A DNA stretch of 39,172 bases, taken from Actinomycetota bacterium (GTDB lineage Bacteria > Actinomycetota > Actinomycetes > Nanopelagicales > Nanopelagicaceae). Numbering within the stretch: the first letter of the stretch is position 1; each line of letters begins with the position of its first letter. Under the pieces are notes generated by a model. That model was not told where the DNA came from, searched no databases, and saw only the letters and a program-made list of their open reading frames with translations. The stretch is from NCBI GenBank assembly GCA_009927575.1, contig RFMS01000171.1, forward strand, positions 1-39,172, in the 5' to 3' direction. Both the position numbers and the translations under genes were made by a program. Positions 13,396-17,919 of the stretch are shown in pieces.

Positions 13396-13674
13396 GTGGG
13401 TAGCGCCGGGTCGTTAATTGCGACGCTTCTCGAACTCTATTTATTTATCCTCTTTGCTCGCTTAATTCTCGATTACGTTCGCATGTTTGCGCGTAATTGG
13501 CGTCCGCGAGGTTTGATGCTTCCGATCGCAGAAATCATTTATGCGCTGACAGATAAGCCGCTCTCGTTTATCCGACGGTTTGTGCCACCGCTGCGATTAG
13601 GCGCGGTCGCACTCGATCTTTCGTTCATCGTTCTCTTTTTTGTCGTTCAATTCCTAGCCAACGCACTGCGTTAA
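13396..13674 (+). CDS. yggT: YggT family membrane protein
   Basis: This is a small integral membrane protein of 92 aa with two hydrophobic segments (about 6-25 and 67-90) separated by a loop containing NWRPRG and DKPLSFIRRFVPPLRLGAVALDLS, typical of YggT. Family members are linked to osmotic tolerance and division-site organisation, but their biochemistry is unknown. The GTG start follows sepF by 3 nt. The stop codon overlaps the convergent ileS stop by 3 nt, leaving no space for a terminator. The actinobacterial divIVA gene that normally comes next is missing. Confidence 0.88.
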   Translation: MGSAGSLIATLLELYLFILFARLILDYVRMFARNWRPRGLMLPIAEIIYALTDKPLSFIRRFVPPLRLGAVALDLSFIVLFFVVQFLANALR

Positions 13675-16600
13675 GAACTTTTCGACACCTTCAGAGTTAG
13701 TTGCAGTTCATTCTCTGCAAGTTGAAGCGCGGGATCACGAACAATCGATAACGCAAGCACTTCTTGCGCTATCTCATCCGAATGGTTAGCAATCGCATTA
13801 GCTACTTCATCTGCAGCGTTCCAGGTAAGTGAAATTCGATCGGTTACCTCGAGCCCGACTCGTTTTCGCTCATCTTGGACAGCGCGAATTACCTCTCGCA
13901 CGTATCCGGCAGCAATTAACGAAGGCGTAAGTGTGAGATCAAGTGCAACGCTCTCTCCAGAGTGACTTGAGACCGACCACCCTTCGCGTGGCGTTTCGGT
14001 AATTACTAAGTCAGATTCGGTCAGTTCCGCGTTCGCTGAATTGCCCTGCGAATCGGTATAGGCAATTTCAACAACTTTCTGGCGCCGAAGTTCTTGAACA
14101 AGTTCTTCAGGATTAACAGAAGATAGTGCGCGAGCAATCGCTTGCACATCTGCACCGTAACGAGCGCCGAGCGATCGGAAATTAGCCTTAAGCGAGACAT
14201 CTACTAATCCACCACCGGCGGATGCCAGATCATCAAGTACGAGCACGTTGAGTTCATCAGCGATTTGATCTTTTAATTGTTGATCAAGCGCGGTCCAACC
14301 TGGTGCAGCAATGAGTGCACGGGAGAGTGGCTGTCGGATTTTCACTTGCGACTCGGCACGAGATGCTCTGCCTAATTCAACTAAGTCGCCTCGTCTGAGC
14401 AACCTGAGATGAGAGTGCGCTATCGATTACTGCCGTATCAACAGTAGGGAAATCTGCTAAGTGAACAGACTCAGCTGCAGAACTATTGACTGGTCGAATG
14501 AGTTCTTGCCATACATGTTCAGTAATAAATGGAACAAGTGGCGACATCAAAAGCGTGAGTTTCTCAAGGCACTCATAAAGTGTTTCAAGCGCCATCAGAT
14601 CACCATCCCAGAACCGGCGACGTGAACGACGAACATACCAATTCGAAAGATCGTCGATAAAAGTTGCTAAATGTTTTCCAGCGCTCTGAGAATCGAAATT
14701 TTCTAGAGCCGAATCAACGCTTTCAATCACCTGATGGAGCTCAGAGATAATCCAACGATCCATCATTGGACGCTGCGATATGGGCGAAGGCGAAGTAGGA
14801 AGTGAAAATTCTGAGGCACGTGCATAGAGAGAGAGGAATGAGACGGTATTCCAATATGTCAGCAGTGTTTTTCGCACGACATCAGAGATCGCATCATGTC
14901 CCACTCGTCGAGCGCTCCAGGGAGAGCCAGCCGCCAGCATGTACCAACGAACCGCGTCCGCGCCGTGTTGGTCCATCAAAGGAATTGGTTCAAGCACATT
15001 TCCAAGGTGCTTACTCATCTTGCGACCATCTTTATCCAAGATATGTCCAAGACAGAGGACGGTTTTATATGACGATTTATCAAAGACTAAAGTGCCAATT
15101 GCCATCAATGTATAGAACCAACCGCGAGTTTGATCAATCGCTTCGCAGATAAAGTCCGCAGGATAAGACTGATTAAATTTCTCGACTGAACCTGGTTTAT
15201 GAGGATAGCCCCATTGCGCAAAGGGCATTGCGCCCGAGTCATACCAACAATCGATGACTTCACTCACGCGCACCATCGTTGATTGACATTCTTTACAAGC
15301 GAAAGTGACATCATCAACAAATGGGCGATGAGGATTGATCTCGGTGACATCTCTACCTGCTACATCACTAAGCTCTTTAAGAGAACCTACGCAGATTTCA
15401 TGCTTATTCTCGCACCGCCAAATTGGCAGCGGCGTACCCCAATAACGGTTTCGTGAGACAGCCCAATCAATGTTGTTAGTTAGCCAATCACCGTAGCGAC
15501 CAGTCTTAATCGTTTCGGGATGCCAATCAGTCGAAGTGTTTTCTCGGATGAGCGCATCTTTAATTTGAGTGGTGCGGATGTACCACGATGGTTGCGCGTA
15601 ATAAATAAGAACGGTGTGGCAACGCCAGCAGTGTGGGTAAGAGTGTTCATACGGTTGATGCTTAAATAATTTACCTGATGTTTTAAGCGCTTTGACTAAA
15701 GTTTTATCGGCTTCTTTAAAGAAGAGCCCGCCTACCAAAGCTAGATCAGATTCAAAATGCCCATTAGAGAGCACTGGATTCACAACAGGAAGTCCATAAG
15801 CGCGACAGACTTGAAGATCATCCGCACCAAATGCAGGCGATTGATGAACTAATCCGGTGCCATCGTCAACTGTTACGTAGTCGGCCAAGACCACATAATG
15901 CGAGTTGGGAATTTCAACTAAATCAAAGGGACGCTCATACGTAGTCTTCTCAAGATCTTTACCCAATACTTTTTCGAGAACTTCATGTTCTGGCGAAACT
16001 CGAGCGATTAAATCCTCCGCAACGATAACTACTTCAGAACTATCTTCGTTCTTGATTCTCGCAACGACATACGTCACTCGCGGGTTTACTGCGACGGCTG
16101 TATTTGAAACCAAGGTCCATGGAGTTGTTGTCCATACAAGAAGTGATGCTTTAAGTTGAGCAAATTTCCCTGAAGTTACAGGGAAGCGAACGTAAACTGA
16201 GGGATCAGTTACAGTCTCATAGCCTTGTGCAAGTTCATGATCTGAAAGTCCAGTGCCGCATCGCGGACAGTACGGAGCAACTCGATGGTCTTGAACAAGT
16301 AGTCCTTTTTTCCAGATTTCAGAGAGTGACCACCAGACGCTCTCGATATATTCATGTGACATCGTCCAATACGCTTGATCAAAATCAACCCAAAAACCCA
16401 TGCGTTCTGTCATCGCAGTAAATTCTGCGACGTGGCGTTGTACTGATTCACGACATTTGTCATTGAATTCAGCGATACCGAATTTTTCGATATCTCCTTT
16501 ACCGGAGAAGCCGAGTTCTTTTTCGACGGCAATCTCTACGGGCAAACCATGACAATCCCAACCAGCGTTACGGATGACATGCTTGCCTTTCATCGTGTGA

Positions 16601-16833
16601 AAACGTGGAAAGACATCTTTAAATACGCGCGCTTCAATGTGGTGGGTTCCAGGTTTGCCATTAGCGGTCGGGGGACCTTCGTAAAAAGTCCAGGACGTTC
16701 CACCAGCTCGCGCGGCAACGCTTGCTTCAAAGATTTTCTTTTCTCGCCAAAACCTCAAAATTTCATGTTCAGTTTTCGGAAGATCGATTTGAGGTGCGAT
16801 AGATCGAAATGGTGAAGTGTTCTCTTTACTCAT
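13671..16833 (-). CDS. ileS: Isoleucyl-tRNA synthetase, frameshifted near the 3' end
   Basis: IleRS charges tRNA-Ile with isoleucine. The class I HIGH-type motif appears as PGTHHIE near residue 62 and KMSKS as KMSKH near residue 604. A CP1 editing domain lies between them, including the WTTTPWTL segment. This motif style resembles the eukaryote-like type 2 IleRS common in Actinobacteria. Start ATG 16833 (MSKENTSPF) follows GGAGG by 5 nt; an upstream in-frame ATG at 16911 lies inside the T-box leader and is rejected. As written, one frame ends at 14377 after AQTRRLS and the tail resumes in another frame (LVELGRASRAES...). Removing one base near 14380-14388 gives QTRRLVELGRASRAE and a 1053-aa enzyme, normal length. 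Its stop overlaps yggT's stop. Confidence 0.95.
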
Positions 16834-17005
16834 AACCGCCTCCGAATAACTCACTGGAGGGACGGTTCTTACAAACCGCGGTACCACCCGCCTTGCGCAG
16901 AAATGCGCCACTTACTTTGTTCGGCCCGTTCTACTCAGATTAAAGATCGTGTGAGACCTGTAAATCTTTTCTTCGAGCGGCTCAGAGGTGATTGCCTCAT
17001 CAACG
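16834..17005 (-). promoter_or_regulatory. T-box riboswitch controlling ileS translation
   Basis: On the minus strand the leader carries the conserved T-box core GGGTGGTACCGCGG (complement of about 16875-16888), which binds the uncharged tRNA acceptor end. Upstream, GAGG and CCTC (complement 16995-16998 and 16985-16988) form a short hairpin whose loop CAATCA contains ATC, an isoleucine codon (complement 16990-16992), as in the ultrashort stem I class of actinobacterial ileS T-boxes. Downstream, AACCG-TC-CCTCC (complement 16856-16867) can pair with GGAGG-CGGTT (complement 16834-16843), hiding the Shine-Dalgarno of ileS. There is no poly-U terminator, so control should be translational: uncharged tRNA-Ile would free the ribosome-binding site. 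Confidence 0.9.
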
Positions 17006-17021
17006 CCTTCGCGAGGTCACA

Positions 17022-17027
17022 ATTCTA
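17022..17027 (-). promoter_or_regulatory. Candidate -10 element for the ileS T-box transcript
   Basis: On the minus strand TAGAAT (complement 17022-17027) lies about 20 nt before the specifier hairpin and would start the RNA near 17015. The -35 region at a 17-nt spacing is poor (CACGTC), so this is a tentative call. It places the ileS promoter in the 79-nt space between the T-box and the divergent DksA/TraR-like gene start. Confidence 0.3.
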
Positions 17028-17081
17028 ATGCATTCTCTCGTGCAGACGTGAGCCTGAATGGCTTTTCGTGGCCAGAGCGCA

Positions 17082-17087
17082 TAGCCT
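17082..17087 (+). promoter_or_regulatory. Candidate -10 element for the DksA/TraR-like gene
   Basis: TAGCCT fits TANNNT and lies 8 nt before the GTG start at 17096. No Shine-Dalgarno sequence is visible. The spacing is slightly longer than the 6-7 nt of the other leaderless candidates in this window, and the -35 region is unconvincing. Confidence 0.25.
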
Positions 17088-17095
17088 TCGCGGCT

Positions 17096-17919
17096 GTGCC
17101 ACTGAAAAAACTTCTTAAAAAGGTAGCCAAGAAGGCAGCCCCAAAAAAATCTGCGCCGCAAAAAAAGGCGAATAAGCCCGCAGCAAAGAAGCCTGTTGCT
17201 AAGAAGAACTTAGCTAAGAAAGTTCCAGCTAAAAAAGCTCCTGCGAAGAAAGCCCCAGTAAAGAAGGCACCAGCGAAAATTGTTCCGGCCAAAGTTGCTC
17301 AGGCTAAAAAGGCGCCAGTCCGTCCAATTATTAAAGCGCCAAATAAGACAGCGCTTACCTCAAGTACCGCTAAAGGCGGAGCAACAACAATTTCCGTTTA
17401 CAAACCAGAGATTGAAGAACAAGCAGCGGCAGTTGTCGAAGAGAAGCGGTTATCACTTACTCCGCCACCACGACCTGTAAAGACTGGGAAGAAGAGCGCA
17501 CCACTCAAACCAATTAAGGCAGCTCCCGCTCCGTTGGTCGTGAAAGATGCCGATGAATCGTGGAGCGCGCCGAGTTGAAAGCAATTCGATCAGAGATTGC
17601 AAAAGATCTTGTTCGCCTCAAAGCAGAGTTGAAAGAAGTTGAGAGCGAGATGGATGATCTCATCGCGGCGTCAGGTGTTGGCGCGGGCGATGACCAAGCC
17701 GATGCCGGGACCAAGACTTTCGAACGAGAGCATGAGATGTCCCTTGTGTACAACGCACGTGACATGGTTTTGCAAACCGAACGAGCGCTTGAACGAATCG
17801 ATACAAAAACTTATGGACGTTGTGAAGATTGCGGGAATGCAATCGGAAAAGCTCGACTTCAAGTATTTCCACGTGCAACGTTATGCATGGTCTGCAAGCA
17901 GAAGGAAGAGCGTCGCTGA
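17096..17919 (+). CDS. DksA/TraR-type zinc-finger protein with Lys/Ala-rich N-terminal tail, frameshifted
   Basis: The C-terminal half is a TraR/DksA C4 zinc-finger protein: a coiled-coil region (ELKAIRSEIAKDLVRLKAE), DDQADAGTKTFEREHE, then the zinc ligands CEDCGNAIGKARLQVFPRAT and LCMVC. The N-terminal half has about 80 residues of Lys/Ala/Pro repeats (AKKAPAKKAPVKKAPAK), like histone H1-like tails that bind nucleic acid. As written the halves are in different frames: the first ends at 17578 with DESWSAPS, the second opens at GTG 17560. One extra G in GCGCGCC (about 17566-17571) gives SWSAAELKAIRSE, the junction seen in actinobacterial homologues, and a single protein of about 274 aa. Start GTG 17096 is preferred over 16988, which lies in the divergent T-box. 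A role in transcription near RNA polymerase is inferred from the family. Confidence 0.85.

Follow-up and report, generated by a model that had tools for sequence, protein, structure and literature searches.

A predicted pseudoknot-less ultrashort T-box upstream of ileS in Nanopelagicaceae

The ileS gene in the window (the whole 39,172-nt stretch of Nanopelagicaceae DNA analysed here) is preceded on the minus strand by a leader that is, with high probability, a tRNA-Ile-sensing T-box riboswitch controlling ileS translation. Judged from its predicted structure, the leader is an ultrashort ileS T-box with neither an elbow clamp nor the stem IIA/B pseudoknot. An ultrashort T-box without the pseudoknot is not described in the accessible portion of the four-class paper (PMC10482949), and an earlier mention elsewhere is possible. 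We consider it likely that the T-boxes of this family bind tRNA-Ile without elbow clamp or stem IIA/B hinge, that they evolved independently from a pseudoknot-less long-stem-I T-box, and that the hinge is dispensable or replaced in nature. The leader thus offers a natural test of how little a tRNA-sensing switch needs.

Identification of the leader

The Rfam covariance search that a preliminary description of this DNA had proposed gave a full-length match of the T-box model RF00230 to positions 17008-16855 of the minus strand (44.5 bits, E 8.8e-9, 371 nt searched). In a genome-wide search with the same model, the leader was the only match at E<=10. Its score was below the RF00230 gathering score of 93, which was reached by 0 of 247 sampled class members; in practice, the Rfam gathering score misses the T-boxes in all of them. 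BLASTN with the leader as query recovered no more than patches, in 10 of 60 relatives, which is why the comparison relied on covariance searches.

The leader lies directly before ileS (14377..16833, minus strand; start ATG at 16833-16831). The downstream open reading frame was identified as IleRS by TIGR00392 (905 bits) with the motif GPPTANGKPGTHHIEAR, and it carries the GXHH signature, as GTHH, at 16639-16650 of the minus strand. Its best-matching named loci were Nanopelagicaceae (acI) MAGs and Ca. Planktophila genomes. It was observed that the IleRS frame is split, with 844 aa encoded at 14377-16911 and a further 243 aa in another phase at 13671-14402, both on the minus strand. IleRS is a single frame of ~1050 aa in most relatives, and the split is either a single indel in the draft assembly or a real frameshift. 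A Lys/Ala-rich, histone-H1-like ORF at 16988-17578 of the plus strand is divergent from ileS; the GTG listed as its start overlaps the T-box, so translation probably begins at a more internal codon. The source genome, that of a freshwater bacterium, is a 1.41 Mb draft (80.6% complete) and encodes a tRNA-Ile with the anticodon GAU and the 3' end A73-CCA. It had been called a low-GC streamlined genome; it is that of a streamlined actinobacterium, but its GC content of about 46-47% is low only for an actinobacterium.

Predicted architecture

All positions in this section are on the minus strand. A candidate –10 box, TAGAAT, was found at 17022..17027, 19 nt before stem I. In 48 of 62 relatives a TANNNT-like box was present in the 60 nt upstream of stem I, compared with 8 of 119 control windows. 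This enrichment at the same place in relatives pointed to a probable transcription start immediately upstream of stem I, which would put the start of the leader near 17015.

Stem I is only 29 nt long (16979..17007) and reads, 5' to 3', GGC-GUU-GA-U-GAGG-CAAUCA-CCUC-U-GA-GCC. It comprises a GGC/GCC lower helix, a K-turn-like layout (GUU plus GA/GA) that was assigned by sequence pattern, and an upper hairpin of 4 bp (GAGG/CCUC, 16998-16995 / 16988-16985) with the 6-nt loop CAAUCA. The loop holds the specifier codon AUC (Ile, 16990..16992), which was invariant in an alignment of 27 leaders (alignment A1) and matches the GAU of tRNA-Ile. Stem II (16924..16978) abuts stem I with zero linker. Its base is formed by GCUCG (16978-16974) and CGGGC (16928-16924) and its upper helix by AGAUU (16967-16963) and AAUCU (16941-16937), with an S-turn (GAA / AGUA, the AGUA strand at 16935-16932) between the two helices. 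The UAGA and the 5' adenines of stem II were also invariant in alignment A1. The 15-nt linker CGAACAAAGUAAGUG (16909..16923) ends in the purine string AAGUG (RRRNG) and is followed by stem III, GCGCA-UUUC-UGCGC, and then AA (16895..16908; 85.2% paired). This arrangement agrees with the RRRNG-stem III-AA motif given in PMC7778990.

The antisequestrator (16856..16892) consists of helix A1, GG(C)GGG / CCC(U)CC, and helix A2, GCGGUU / AACCGU. The T-box core GGGUGGUACCGCGG was read from the sequence at 16889-16876, and the T-box bulge, UGGU (16886-16883) plus ACC, fits the ACCA end of tRNA-Ile. In the competing sequestrator (16834..16867), AACCG (16867-16863) is paired with CGGUU (16838-16834) and CCUCC (16860-16856) with GGAGG (16843-16839). 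The latter is the Shine-Dalgarno (SD) sequence before the ATG at 16833, which is masked by the sequestrator CCUCC.

The T-box core, the 4-bp hairpin with its 6-nt AUC loop and the sequester helix were thus all recovered on the minus strand where the preliminary description had located them. The extent it had given, 16834-17005, places the element correctly, but stem I begins a few bases earlier, at 17007. The specifier hairpin, which it had called minimal, indeed has 4 bp and a 6-nt loop; this is not unusual, as published class III loops have 5-6 nt (PMC10482949).

Comparative support and distribution

The single-sequence fold energy of the window's leader was ordinary (z –0.28), and the support for the structure is therefore comparative. 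Among 27 same-family leaders, 90.2% of the pair cells were standard, compared with 74.3±0.9% after shuffling, and 168 cells were double-changed, compared with 61.5±7.7. When the partners were slid by 1-3 columns, pairing fell to 40-47%. Within the same set, both stem I helices were 100% paired, with double changes at 3/3 lower and 2/4 upper pairs; the lower helix of stem II was 94.8% paired, with double changes at 4/5 pairs, and stem III likewise had double changes at 4/5 pairs. Antisequestrator pairing reached 100% in the A1 core and 96.9% in A2. Covariation was present in every helix but the invariant core of helix A1. In a covariation scan of 60 non-redundant leaders, the top nine covarying column pairs were all pairs of the model. 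A pairing of the stem II loop, GGUCU:GGGCC, was considered and dropped, because most of GGGCC is already accounted for by a strand of the covarying lower helix of stem II.

The covariance model R1, built from the 27 leaders with the window's own sequence among them, matched 159 of 296 genomes of the family (Nanopelagicaceae, acI), in 11 of 17 genera. In genera g6 and g14, matches were few and had the long-stem-I form. Model R1 matched none of the other four genomes in the window's own genus, and no T-box core was found in the ileS leaders of these genomes (G001-G004; L042-L045). The T-box thus appears dispensable in the four same-genus genomes that have lost it and in the roughly half of the family where the model finds no match. 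Such a pattern, with sister species that lack the element, might be expected if the leader were a decaying relic, in which pairing persists and tRNA binding and regulation were lost once the clamp and the pseudoknot had gone. This is very unlikely. The specifier, the UGGU, the S-turn bases and the antisequestrator are invariant, numerous compensatory changes mark the covarying helices, and the sequestrator has been retained, a picture not expected of a relic in streamlined genomes.

Absence of the stem IIA/B pseudoknot

The ultrashort ileS T-boxes of N. farcinica and M. tuberculosis possess a stem IIA/B pseudoknot with an F-box, and its removal is reported to cause a >1000-fold loss in tRNA binding (PMC10482949, PMC7583486). 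According to PMC10482949, stems I and II stack on each other once the pseudoknot is deleted, with Kd rising to ~29 uM; separating the two stems with a U linker partly rescues binding. With zero linker between the two stems, the window's leader leaves this remedy unused. Given the >1000-fold loss in the published deletions, function without the pseudoknot is not guaranteed.

The same stem I hairpin, K-turn pattern, S-turn and SD sequestration would be seen if the leader were an ordinary class III T-box of the N. farcinica type whose pseudoknot had diverged too far to be recognized. This reading is very unlikely on several grounds. The space between stems II and III is 15 nt, whereas the published pseudoknot alone takes 21 nt. 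The median linker was 18 nt in the ultrashort T-boxes of Nanopelagicaceae compared with 31.5 nt in ultrashort T-boxes with an F-box, both medians excluding scripted values of 1-5 nt, where stem III was mis-set. An F-box was found in 0 of the 86 Nanopelagicaceae leaders scored as ultrashort. In the F-box ultrashort T-boxes (L099-L110, L119, L120, L122, L124), stem II is followed by CGGG..CCCGU.ACAGCC, which is the stem IIA/B pseudoknot. A covariation scan of the linker columns in the 60 non-redundant leaders showed nothing pair-consistent and no hint of a substitute. The best linker covariations were weak, for example 14.8 with 34% pairing, compared with true pairs of up to 58 with 98%. The regulated IleRS also belongs to a different lineage, as described below. 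H-type pseudoknots were flagged mechanically in a few linkers and were unsupported by the linker scan; the flags in L007 and L113 were rejected because the end of stem II was mis-set there.

Relation to known T-boxes and IleRS lineages

The class III translational ileS T-box (PMC10482949, PMC7583486) shares with the leader an ultrashort stem I with a hexanucleotide AUC loop, the S-turn stem II, stem III with RRRNG..AA, the UGGN bulge, SD sequestration and the ileS target; it differs in owning the stem IIA/B pseudoknot and the F-box, neither of which the window's leader has. Helix A1 is GG(C/U)GGG:CCCUCC in the window's leader and GCGGGG:CCCCG-like in class III. Moreover, class III sits before HYGH IleRS, whereas the window's leader sits before GXHH IleRS, a separate IleRS clade. 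The leader had been assigned to the described actinobacterial class of translation-controlling T-boxes. Its translational nature and ultrashort stem I agree with that class, but the missing pseudoknot and F-box and the GXHH IleRS speak against membership. The preliminary description is thus partly supported: the predicted function is as it had stated, while lineage and anatomy appear to be otherwise.

Closer similarity was found to the long-stem-I ileS T-boxes of other Actinomycetia (L069-L096). They have the same stem II, a 15-20-nt linker without pseudoknot, the CAAGG..GGG / CCCUCC core, a GXHH IleRS and no F-box, and they differ in a long stem I that keeps the distal elbow-contact region. 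The middle position of helix A1 is a C.U or U.U mismatch in 27/27 leaders of alignment A1, and A:U in long-stem-I ileS T-boxes. The class IV ileS T-box of Actinomyces odontolyticus (PMC10482949) shares a shortened stem I without elbow clamp and the presence of stem II. Two leaders of family f5 (L111, L112) were observed to have a stem I of intermediate length in which the specifier lies next to a small helix, as in class IV; both are without F-box. The class II glyQS T-box of B. subtilis also works without the stem IIA/B pseudoknot, but it is glycine-specific, transcriptional and without stem II, and has a long stem I.

Among loci with a readable motif, all F-box T-boxes (15/15) were located before HYGH IleRS, and all F-box-less T-boxes, whether long, ultrashort or intermediate (46/46), before GXHH IleRS. 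In a maximum-likelihood IleRS tree (unrooted), the HYGH and GXHH groups were split with 100/100 support and a very long branch. Within the GXHH clade, the ultrashort form of family f14 (L113/L271) was nested inside long-stem-I relatives (95/82 and 97/94) and away from Nanopelagicaceae. The split and the nesting most likely reflect at least two, probably three, separate origins of the ultrashort stem, on two IleRS lineages. The lineage of the leader, as read from the regulated IleRS, is different from that of class III. Because the IleRS tree is unrooted, the direction of the stem I change is inferred. The leader probably descends, by shortening of stem I, from an ileS T-box that had a long stem I and no pseudoknot, and its origin would then be separate from that of the crystallised mycobacterial and nocardial class. 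The swapped GXHH signature has been linked to natural mupirocin hyper-resistance (PMC10485003).

Control of ileS translation

The SD was mostly paired to the 3' strand of the T-box in 50 of 56 relatives, some of this pairing being automatic because every T-box has a CCUCC that is similar to an anti-SD. The spacers folded better than shuffled sequences across relatives (mean z –2.1); the window's own spacer showed no excess folding (z +1.2). The predicted energy of the sequestrator was –13.1 kcal/mol, compared with –8.8 for the canonical pairs of the antisequestrator, so that the default state should be off. From these predictions, the leader is expected to control ileS translation by SD masking. 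Control by transcription termination, by which Firmicutes long-stem-I T-boxes mostly act, is highly improbable, Rho-dependent effects aside, because no U-tract terminator follows the competing helix, as the preliminary description had held, no terminator-like site was found on the minus strand from stem I to ileS, and in 50 of 56 relatives the SD itself is covered by the competing helix.

Proposed mechanism and implications

Uncharged tRNA bridges the specifier and the bulge of a T-box, and charged tRNA does not. When tRNA-Ile is charged, the AACCG/CCUCC strand would pair with the ribosome site and ileS would be off. Uncharged tRNA-Ile would pair through its GAU with the AUC and through its ACCA with the UGGU, stabilising the antisequestrator and freeing the SD. 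As in N. farcinica, the S-turn of stem II would support the helix formed by codon and anticodon. Without the pseudoknot hinge, tRNA binding would probably be weaker, and two-point attachment, at the anticodon and the acceptor end, together with the cellular tRNA concentration, could make up for it. Most likely, weaker binding aided by the acceptor-end contact, which is missing from truncated constructs, would be enough in the cell.

The conservation of pseudoknot-less ultrashort T-boxes suggests compensation by acceptor-end anchoring or by another contact. If such T-boxes do work, a hinge that is essential in vitro is dispensable, or replaced, in nature. As the pseudoknot is absent from the ultrashort ileS T-boxes across the family, with helices and contact bases conserved, the rule that it is required becomes directly testable.

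A second departure from published rules was observed in the ileS T-boxes L012-L016 and L114-L117, which have a long stem I with an AUC specifier and apparently no stem II. This form was found in the Nanopelagicaceae genera g6 and g14 and also in families f11 and f14. It runs contrary to the view in PMC7583486 that only glycine T-boxes manage without stem II, and would break that glycine-only rule.
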